Shown one piece after another: positions 1 to 36,026 of a DNA stretch of 36,196 nt. Position 1 is the stretch's first letter. Every line of letters begins with the position of its first letter. Origin of the DNA: Candidatus Colicola coprequi. GTDB lineage: Bacteria > Bacteroidota > Bacteroidia > Bacteroidales > Paludibacteraceae. The stretch spans positions 1-36,196 of the forward strand of contig JAGHSR010000158.1 of the NCBI GenBank assembly GCA_018065765.1, given 5' to 3'. The position numbers were made by a program, and so were the translations under genes. The notes beneath the pieces are model-generated. The model saw nothing but the letters and a program-made list of their open reading frames with translations. It ran no database searches and was not told the DNA's origin.

Positions 1-1
1 T

Positions 2-928
2 GCTGACAAGGCTTGGGAGCACATCCAGGAAATTGAGAAACTGGGTGGTATGGCTGCGGCTATTGAGACAGGTATTCCTAAGATGCGTATCGAGGAAGCC
101 GCTGCTCGCACACAAGCTCGTATCGACTCAGGTTCACAGAAGATCATCGGTGTCAACGAGTATCGTCTTGACCACGAAGATCCTATTGATATCCTTGAGG
201 TTGATAATACCGCTGTTCGCGAAGAGCAAGTAGCTCGTCTGGCTGAACTTCGCAAGAACCGTGACGAGAAAGCCGTGCAGGCTGCTCTTAAGGAAATCAC
301 AGCTGCCGTTCAGGCATGGGCTGATGGTAAGAAAGGTGAAAACCTCCTCGCTCTCGCTGTTAAGGCTGCAGGGCTCCGCGCTTCATTGGGCGAGATCTCT
401 GACGCTTGCGAAGCTGTCGTAGGACGTTATAAAGCAACTATTAGAACTATTTCAGGCGTGTACGCTTCAGGAACCAAGAATGATGAGTATTTTGTCAAGG
501 CACAAGAACTCACCGCTGCCTTCGCTAAGAAAGAAGGCCGTCAACCTCGTATTATGATTGCTAAGATGGGTCAAGATGGTCATGACCGTGGTGCTAAAGT
601 AGTAGCAACAGGCTATGCCGATTGTGGCTTTGATGTGGATATGGGACCGTTGTTCCAAACTCCTGCTGAGGCTGCTAAGCAAGCTGTCGAGAACGATGTT
701 CATGTATTGGGCGTCAGCTCTTTGGCTGCCGGTCACAAGACTCTTGTGCCTCAAGTGATTGCTGAACTCAAGAAACTTGGCCGTGAGGACATCATGGTTA
801 TCGCTGGTGGTGTCATTCCTGCACAGGACTATGACTACCTCTACAAAGCTGGCGTAGCTGCCATCTTCGGTCCTGGTAGCAACGTGGCTAAAGCCGCTTG
901 CACCATCATGGAATTGCTCATGCAATAA
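2..928 (+). CDS. Methylmalonyl-CoA mutase large subunit, C-terminal part (5' truncated by window edge)
   Basis: Frame is open from position 2. Protein carries the B12-binding DGHDRG motif (MGQDGHDRGAKVVATGYADCGFDVDMGPLFQTPAEAA) and the IAGGVIP...IFGPGS segment typical of the MCM C-terminal domain. Confidence 0.95.
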   Translation, partial: ADKAWEHIQEIEKLGGMAAAIETGIPKMRIEEAAARTQARIDSGSQKIIGVNEYRLDHEDPIDILEVDNTAVREEQVARLAELRKNRDEKAVQAALKEITAAVQAWADGKKGENLLALAVKAAGLRASLGEISDACEAVVGRYKATIRTISGVYASGTKNDEYFVKAQELTAAFAKKEGRQPRIMIAKMGQDGHDRGAKVVATGYADCGFDVDMGPLFQTPAEAAKQAVENDVHVLGVSSLAAGHKTLVPQVIAELKKLGREDIMVIAGGVIPAQDYDYLYKAGVAAIFGPGSNVAKAACTIMELLMQ

Positions 929-936
929 AAGGTTTT

Positions 937-1036
937 CTAGTATCCTAGGGTTCTAGTTTTCTAGTCATCTAGTTAACTAGTTCCCTAGAATCCTAGTTAT
1001 CTAGATTTCTAGTCTCCTAGTCTCCTAGTATCCTAG
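937..1036. repeat. Octamer array: 13 CTAG tetramers at exactly 8-bp spacing
   Basis: CTAG starts at 937, 945, 953, 961, 969, 977, 985, 993, 1001, 1009, 1017, 1025, 1033; the other four bases of each unit vary. Confidence 0.95.
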
Positions 1037-1064: not shown

Positions 1065-1628
1065 ATGCTCTCTCCCCTCGCCCCTGACGGTTTCCTCAAA
1101 CCCATCACCGACTACAAATCGCTGATTTTTTACAAGAAGACGGTCATTCTTTACGATATGACTTTCTTTTTTGTAAATCGCTATTTGGAGCGTGGTGACC
1201 GCACTATTGACCAAATGGTTCAGGCAGCTCGTTCGGGCAAACAGAATATAGTGGAGGGACTAGAAGACGGCATGGCATCAAAGGAGATGGCTATCAAACT
1301 ACTCAATGTTGCACGTGGCTCACTCAAAGAACTGCAAGAAGATTACGAGGACCAATTGCGTGTGCATGGTTTGCCTATTTGGACTACGGCTCATCCTCGC
1401 AGCAAAGCGCTGAAAGACTTTTGCTTTGCCCATAATGGGGTAGAGCAGTATGCTCCTTATTTTGAACGTTGGAGTTTGGAGGAGTTTTGTAATACGGCTT
1501 TAACCCTTATTCATCAGGCGGATAGGGGTATATTCTCATATCTCAAGAAACTTGAAGCCGCTTTCCTCACTGAAGGCGGTATCAAGGAACAAATGTCTGC
1601 CGCCCGTCGCCGTGTCCGTGGCTATTGA
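1065..1628 (+). CDS. Four-helix bundle protein (S23/IVS-like superfamily, 'four helix bundle suffix' type)
   Basis: 187-aa ORF. Segment TYDxxxFFVNRYLERGDRTIDQMVQAARSGKQNIVEG matches the conserved Q(A)ARSxxxNIxEG signature of the S23/four-helix bundle family. Confidence 0.8.
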   Translation: MLSPLAPDGFLKPITDYKSLIFYKKTVILYDMTFFFVNRYLERGDRTIDQMVQAARSGKQNIVEGLEDGMASKEMAIKLLNVARGSLKELQEDYEDQLRVHGLPIWTTAHPRSKALKDFCFAHNGVEQYAPYFERWSLEEFCNTALTLIHQADRGIFSYLKKLEAAFLTEGGIKEQMSAARRRVRGY

Positions 1629-1654: not shown

Positions 1655-1861
1655 CTAGTCAACTAGTTCCCTAGTTATCTAGTTCCCTCGTCCATAGCCC
1701 CCTAGTCAACTAGTCTTCTAGTGCCCTAGTAAACTAGCCCACTATTAGTTGTCCTAGTGCCCTAGTAAACTAGTCCACTATTAGTTGTCCTAGTGCTCTA
1801 GTAAACTAGTCAACTATTAGTTGTCCTAGTGTCCTAGTAAACTAGCCCACTAGTCAACTAA
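1655..1861. repeat. Second CTAG octamer array with higher-order 36-bp repeat
   Basis: CTAG at 8-bp spacing with small interruptions. The 36-bp unit ctagtgccctagtaaactagcccactattagttgtc starts at 1718, 1754 and 1790, with a partial copy at 1826. Confidence 0.93.
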
Positions 1862-21305: not shown

Positions 21306-21361
21306 ACCAATCACAAATCACAAATCACAAATAACAAATCACAAATCACCAATCCCCAATC
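21306..21361. repeat. Heptamer tandem repeat (CAAATCA-type)
   Basis: caaatca caaatca caaataa caaatca caaatca ccaatcc ccaatct: 7-bp period. Confidence 0.85.
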
Positions 21362-25472: not shown

Positions 25473-25494
25473 AGTTGTATAATTTAGTATTCCG

Positions 25495-25626
25495 CATTTC
25501 GCATTTAGCATTTTGCATTTTGCATTCTGCATTTTGCATTTAGCATTCCGCATTCTGCATTCTGCATTCTGCATTTCGCATTTTGCATTTCGCATTTTGC
25601 ATTCCGCATTCTGCATTTTGCATTCC
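25495..25626. repeat. Heptamer tandem repeat (GCATTNN), about 18 units
   Basis: gcattta gcatttt gcatttt gcattct gcatttt gcattta gcattcc gcattct ... regular 7-bp period up to gcattcccc. Confidence 0.95.
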
Positions 25627-35642: not shown

Positions 35643-35712
35643 TTTGTCGTTTCCGTTGTCGTTTCCGTTGTCGTTTCCGTTGTCGTTTTCGTTGTCGTTT
35701 CCGTTGTCGTTG
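35643..35712. repeat. 12-bp tandem repeat (tttccgttgtcg), about 5-6 units
   Basis: gtcgtttccgttgtcgtttccgttgtcgtttccgttgtcgttttcgttgtcgtttccgttgtcg. Confidence 0.9.
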
Positions 35713-35757
35713 TGCATTTCGCGTCCATTAGTTGGGCGCACTTGCTCCGTCCTCTCC

Positions 35758-35978
35758 CCTTTGTCGCGCTTTGCTGCGCTGCAGCGCTCCTTGTCGCCGT
35801 GCCTCTCTGTCCCCTTTGTCGCGCTTTGCTGCGCTGCAGCGCTCCTTGTCGCCGTGCCTCTCTGTCTCCTTTCTCCCGCTTTGCTGCGCTGCAGCGCTCC
35901 TTGTCGCCGCGCCTCTCTGTCTCCTTTGTCGCGCTTTGCTGCGCTGCAGCGCTCCTTGTCGCCGCGCCTTTCTCGACA
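35758..35978. repeat. 55-bp tandem repeat, 4 copies, each with a 12-bp perfect palindrome GCGCTGCAGCGC
   Basis: Units begin at 35761, 35816, 35871, 35926 (ttgtcgcgctttgctgcgctgcagcgctccttgtcgccgYgcctctctgtcYcct). Confidence 0.93.
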
Positions 35979-36026
35979 CTTTCTCGACACTTTCTCGACA
36001 CTCTCTCGACACTCTCTCGACACTTC
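35969..36026. repeat. 11-bp tandem repeat (ttctcgacact), about 5 units
   Basis: tttctcgacactttctcgacactttctcgacactctctcgacactctctcgacac. Confidence 0.9.

Follow-up and report, generated by a model that had tools for sequence, protein, structure and literature searches.

Genes for four-helix-bundle suffix proteins (the family of TIGR04258, with the S23/IVP fold; here called 4HBS) in the genus of Candidatus Colicola coprequi, a member of the Bacteroidales, are commonly flanked by arrays in which a short core recurs at a fixed pitch, and both the core and the pitch follow protein lineage. This pairing points to an undescribed protein-and-DNA-repeat system. From the sequences compared below, we think it probable, if by no means assured, that array, 4HBS gene and array form one unit whose arrays serve the adjacent protein as recognition ladders and are dispersed in the manner of REP sequences and RAYT transposases. 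A search of open-licence papers for the pairing of 4HBS genes with arrays, or for palindromic arrays of 8- or 9-bp units, returned nothing.

The window analyzed here, a stretch of 36,196 nucleotides from this species (contig JAGHSR010000158.1), carries one such gene with an array on each side (Table 1). In the upstream array, CTAG cores start at positions 937, 945, 953, 961, 969, 977, 985, 993, 1001, 1009, 1017, 1025 and 1033, the last core ending at 1036, and the 12 spacers between them are nearly all distinct (TATC, GGTT, TTTT, TCAT, TTAA, TTCC, AATC, TTAT, ATTT, TCTC, TCTC, TATC). These positions bear out a sequence-only reading of the same DNA, which had reported 13 CTAGs at exact 8-bp spacing; the second array and the gene between the two were absent from that reading. 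It had also called CTAG rare, and rightly so: once the arrays are set aside, 7 CTAGs remain in the window where 75 are expected from tri- and dinucleotides, and 80.6 kb of the genome have 19 where 176 are expected (0.11 of expectation), an approximately tenfold depletion. Depletion in this genome extends to GATC (0.24 of expectation) and GGCC (0.32), as counted in the window, L016-L022 and L200-L202. All six frames are closed by the upstream array, with 4-7 stops per frame, as had been predicted, and the genome-wide pattern count that the reading had proposed as a check returned 24 occurrences of four CTAGs in 8-bp phase in 1.53 Mb against 0 for the reversed control pattern. An Rfam scan of positions 850-1950 gave zero matches.

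A slippage microsatellite, which the sequence-only reading had already set aside, is a poor description of these arrays: their units are not near-identical, spacers vary and cores are invariant, CTAG is depleted in the genome, and orthologous upstream arrays of the window's clade differ at 5% of core as compared with 35% of spacer positions, in alignments that favor a core-to-core register and in which cores lost in one partner are still counted. The same trend is seen in most clade comparisons. A CRISPR array was rejected as well, the unit being a 4-bp core with a 4-bp spacer and not a long identical repeat with long unique spacers. Other tandem repeats of the window include about 18 AATGCNN units of 7-bp pitch with variable last bases (25494-25624), a fixed-core array without known partner gene that stands just ahead of a ClpC/ClpB-like AAA gene on the minus strand; a GATTTGT array of 7-bp pitch (21306-21361) that fills the space separating an S41 peptidase gene from the gene that follows and has the TGA stop of the peptidase in phase within it; and dense 12-bp, 55-bp and 11-bp repeats near the window end (35644-36025).

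Table 1. Features of the window at the array-flanked 4HBS gene.
Feature	Position	Strand	Basis or remark
Methylmalonyl-CoA mutase gene, 3' part, upstream neighbor of the 4HBS gene	1..928	+	
Array 1: 13 CTAG cores, exact 8-bp pitch, variable 4-bp spacers	937..1036	.	
4HBS gene, 187-aa four-helix-bundle protein with C-terminal 'suffix' domain	1065..1628	+	TIGR04258, TIGR02436, AlphaFold model
Array 2: 19 CTAG cores, 8-bp pitch within blocks	1655..1853	.	Starts 27 bp past the 4HBS stop codon
36-bp higher-order tandem repeat, 3.8 copies	1718..1852	+	Part of array 2

The protein encoded between the arrays is a member of the 'four helix bundle suffix' family by its score against TIGR04258 (61.5 bits, cut-off 40) and also exceeds the cut-off of TIGR02436 (27.9 bits, cut-off 24); its score against PF05635 (23S_rRNA_IVP), 25.8 bits, lies under the Pfam gathering score of 33.8. 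AlphaFold predicts a confident four-helix bundle (pLDDT 94.6). The PDB structures that match it best are 2GSC and 2RLD, both S23/IVP proteins (TM by target of at most 0.78, probability 1.00, E 0.02-0.05), and on this model the protein is assigned the S23/IVP fold. Its sequence found no match among solved structures, no 4HBS relatives were found in a search of phages, and PADLOC gave no match for it and one sub-threshold match for the second 4HBS protein of the genome. The isoelectric points of 4HBS proteins are near neutral (mean 6.5-9.0 by clade). In the tested proteins of two array types, TCGA/8 (core and pitch in bp; the protein of contig C83 described below) and GGCTNCC/7, a zinc ribbon of the topoisomerase-type, DNA-binding family PF01396 is joined to the bundle, which supports contact of 4HBS with DNA. 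The possibility that the gene is a 23S rRNA intervening sequence was rejected, since it adjoins methylmalonyl-CoA mutase and does not lie within a 23S rRNA gene; the methylmalonyl-CoA mutase region also adjoins the window-type 4HBS gene in three related species, the upstream ~1 kb being 80-83% identical. Exactly one other 4HBS gene is present in the 1.53-Mb genome, on contig C83 between hsdS and hsdR. It has TCGA arrays of 8-bp pitch on both sides, and a third TCGA array lies in frame within the adjoining hsdR (L022:2504-2531).

Arrays, defined by at least four period-matched tetramer pairs, were found in 112 of the 208 250-bp flanks of same-genus 4HBS loci (54%), as compared with 6 of 538 distal windows (1%) that lie at a distance of over 800 bp in those loci; with a looser cut of three pairs, 92 of 106 loci have an array in at least one 250-bp flank. 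The flank arrays sit near the ends of the 4HBS genes and are, among other types, CTAG/8, CTAG/9, CTAG/10, TCGA/8, TCACGA/8, GCCTA/10, TTAA-GACC/9, TCCGA/9, TCCGA/10, AATT/9 and GGCT/7. When types labeled by hand from the computed consensus were placed on the protein tree, the 17 types at 105 labeled 4HBS loci gave 23 changes, compared with 65-76 for shuffled labels, and pitch alone gave 11 compared with 41-53. In the loci surveyed, core and pitch of the flanking arrays thus follow the 4HBS protein lineage, and because they track the protein that lies between the arrays, a protein-binding ladder, one of the functions put forward in the sequence-only reading, is the best-fitting interpretation, the binding itself being what we infer. 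Records of rumen Bacteroidales and of Prevotella likewise show arrays beside 4HBS genes, and short 9-bp arrays occur beside some 4HBS genes in a distant family of the phylum; several 4HBS genes of other genera (L024, L027, L029, L040-L043) have no clear array. The four 4HBS genes of one genome (G021) differ in array type, and its 4HBS region L128 also contains CCATGG (10-bp), GGTTACG (7-bp) and AGTGCAGAA (9-bp) arrays.

The pair is found in a cultured organism as well, which excludes an artifact of metagenome assembly: Prevotella nigrescens FDAARGOS_1486 (NZ_CP082843.1) has an annotated 4HBS protein (WP_004367454.1, 53% identical) with a CTAG/9 array just downstream of its gene. In 300 kb of this replicon (L341-L346), CTAG occurs 28 times where 463 are expected; four arrays, each with a 9-bp pitch, account for 17 of the 28, and a search of the same 300 kb for CTAG arrays with a pitch of 6-8 or 10-13 found none.

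Matching arrays are present elsewhere in the genomes. Array patterns were counted in 178 genomes of the genus with the 4HBS flanks subtracted, and compared by a genome-level Fisher test that ignores relatedness. These counts placed CTAG/8 arrays in trans in 25 of 28 genomes that carry a CTAG/8 4HBS gene and 66 of 150 others (7e-6), CTAG/9 arrays in 14 of 16 genomes with a CTAG/9 gene and 94 of 162 others (0.03), and TCGA/8 arrays in 10 of 11 genomes with a TCGA/8 gene and 70 of 167 others (0.003); reversed-pattern controls were near zero. Three genomes (G202, G156 and G216) have 193, 158 and 37 CTAG/9 matches, respectively, and zero CTAG/8 matches, and no link between CTAG/9 4HBS genes and CTAG/8 arrays was found over the 178 genomes. 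By these counts, dispersed arrays tend to match the type that flanks the genome's own 4HBS gene. The pairing is imperfect: TCGA/8 arrays are also enriched, more weakly, in genomes with CTAG/8 4HBS genes, and arrays are present in many genomes without a detected 4HBS gene, which could reflect incomplete assemblies, remnants or a looser link.

Solo CTAG/8 arrays lie between codirectional genes in 17 of 20 cases, usually filling the space that separates the upstream stop codon from the ribosome-binding region that follows, and in 11 of the 20 the stop codon of the upstream gene falls within the array. None of the 20 is internal to an ORF, as compared with 16 of 40 CTAG/9 and TCGA/8 arrays that are clearly so (Fisher 0.0005), and this absence makes the stops of CTAG/8 look like a liability. 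The ORF-internal arrays run in frame, without breaking it, through ligA (the same loop in two species), mutS2, valS, gltX, lpd and a suf gene, the names of array-bearing genes having been read from translations, and the peptides that they encode differ from gene to gene. On the simplest interpretation, arrays originate at many sites and selection purges those that would stop a gene. Between KIVGK and CPECG, LigA has a hypervariable loop filled with short repeats that differ among species of the genus (L310-L339, L274, L289).

Close relatives differ in whether a junction has an array. At the era junction, an array of eight CTAGs begins at the upstream stop codon in one genome (G000); the sequence there in a relative (G070) is TAA, with no array. 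In three species with unrelated neighbor genes, one 4HBS gene and the 80-100 bp to either side of it, which include the arrays, are 95-98% identical, as a mobile unit would be; other 4HBS units, the window's among them, keep one site across species. Solo arrays are not plain copies of a 4HBS-flank array, the solo spacers of G000 not following the spacer order of its flank array; some solo arrays of two genomes (G050 and G150) have a three-unit block in common with the downstream array of the window. Terminal inverted repeats were rejected as a general description of the flanks, since the upstream and downstream arrays run mostly as direct repeats in Bacteroidales, with inverted ones at some loci of the distant family. 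As regards the recombination substrate suggested in the sequence-only reading, dispersal of arrays is likely, and recombination as its mechanism found no support.

REP/REPIN sequences and RAYT transposases form a system in which a gene is flanked by short palindromic repeats that are also dispersed and whose type is tied to the gene lineage (PMC3116915). The 4HBS genes resemble them in being flanked by repeats, in the dispersal of the same repeats in the genome and in the tie between repeat type and lineage, but 4HBS is a four-helix bundle without HUH motif, its repeats are 7-10 bp units of fixed pitch, and its arrays also lie inside coding genes; since the H-hydrophobic-H motif is missing from 4HBS homologues (0 of 135), 4HBS is not a RAYT. 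With the S23/23S rRNA intervening-sequence family (PF05635, TIGR02436, including DGR Avd), 4HBS has in common its fold and a weak profile match, and differs by the extra suffix domain (TIGR04258), a gene outside rRNA and array flanks; no description of arrays for the S23 family was found in the open-licence literature searched. Rickettsia palindromic elements, which are about 150 bp long and encode a conserved peptide, are inserted in frame inside protein-coding genes (PMC10969869), as are some of the present repeats, but the latter are arrays of 30-150 bp made of 8-9-bp units with free spacers, and their peptides differ between genes.

We propose that each 4HBS lineage has its own flanking arrays, made of a short, mostly dyad-symmetric core at a fixed pitch of 7-10 bp, and that an oligomeric S23/IVP-type bundle, extended in some lineages by the zinc ribbon, would recognize the core of its lineage at the matching pitch, making an array a ladder of putative binding sites for the cognate protein. 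Protein and arrays may then act like a REP/RAYT-type family, cognate arrays being gained and kept at many sites in trans, where they would persist wherever no gene is broken. The sequences show the association of 4HBS genes with arrays; from the patterns described above we infer binding, recognition by an oligomer and the route by which arrays originate and spread.

The arrays might instead work as single strands, the cores of different units pairing into a long ladder hairpin of RNA or single-stranded DNA that is recognized by 4HBS or serves, where genes end, as a terminator or a structure of the mRNA end. This is in our judgment unlikely; it is a serious rival because three of the four P. 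nigrescens arrays, unlike the solo arrays of the window's genus, form near-perfect hairpins, their spacers being complementary and several of the arrays lying between convergent genes. Shuffled sequences fold much less well than either array of the window (z -6.4 to -6.6 for the arrays), and the related Avd protein acts together with reverse transcriptase in retrohoming (PMC10053308). Periodic palindromic cores, however, fold well by construction, and when spacers were shuffled with the cores kept, solo arrays of the genus had mean z values of -0.20, -0.65 and -0.05 (not significant) and 4HBS-flank arrays did only slightly better; arrays also lie within coding sequence.

Under ordinary autoregulation, a 4HBS repressor would have its operators in the flanks and its regulon in the dispersed arrays, with no mobility involved. 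MetJ met boxes and TrpR operators are likewise tandem 8-bp palindromic boxes, the trp operator (CTAGTTAACTAG) having CTAG spaced 8 bp, and the arrays do adjoin the 4HBS gene, with solo arrays often at gene junctions. The 4HBS arrays differ from these operators in having many more units, many core types, dispersed and intragenic copies and a protein of unrelated fold. We hold such autoregulation to be improbable: arrays lie in the coding sequence of ligA, mutS2, gltX and hsdR, the same junction occurs with or without an array in close relatives, and some genomes have more than 150 CTAG/9 matches, all of which is unlike a regulon. Neutral, microsatellite-like expansion, with 4HBS genes hitchhiking in variable regions, is in keeping with the hypervariable, repeat-filled LigA loops and with other short tandem repeats of the genus that have no known partner (25494-25624 and 21306-21361 of the window), but strikes us as more improbable still, given that cores are kept while spacers diverge, that array type follows protein lineage, and that flanks are so much richer in arrays than distal windows, with reversed-pattern controls near zero. 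The translation barrier or insulator envisaged in the sequence-only reading, acting through CTAG/8 stops in six frames, agrees with the closure of every frame and with the upstream stop codons inside solo CTAG/8 arrays; it is very hard to credit as the function of arrays whose sister types are built of stop-free TCGA or keep the frame by a 9-bp pitch, and are translated within genes.

Beyond the reading of the arrays as recognition ladders for the adjacent 4HBS protein, a further-reaching possibility compatible with the sequence comparisons, which we offer tentatively and with some doubt, is that 4HBS, a four-helix bundle in which no transposase motif is recognizable, acts in trans in a system that writes repeats: the protein lineage would set core and pitch, arrays of fixed core and free spacer would be written or maintained genome-wide, even in frame within essential genes, and paralogues would have diversified into a natural recognition code. 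The 4HBS-array pair is testable because a culturable species with a complete genome, P. nigrescens, carries it. If true, the proposal would provide a function for a widespread family of uncharacterized four-helix-bundle proteins and would define a class of dispersed repeats built without a known transposase, and its dozens of naturally diverged combinations of protein, core and pitch would make the recognition code readable.
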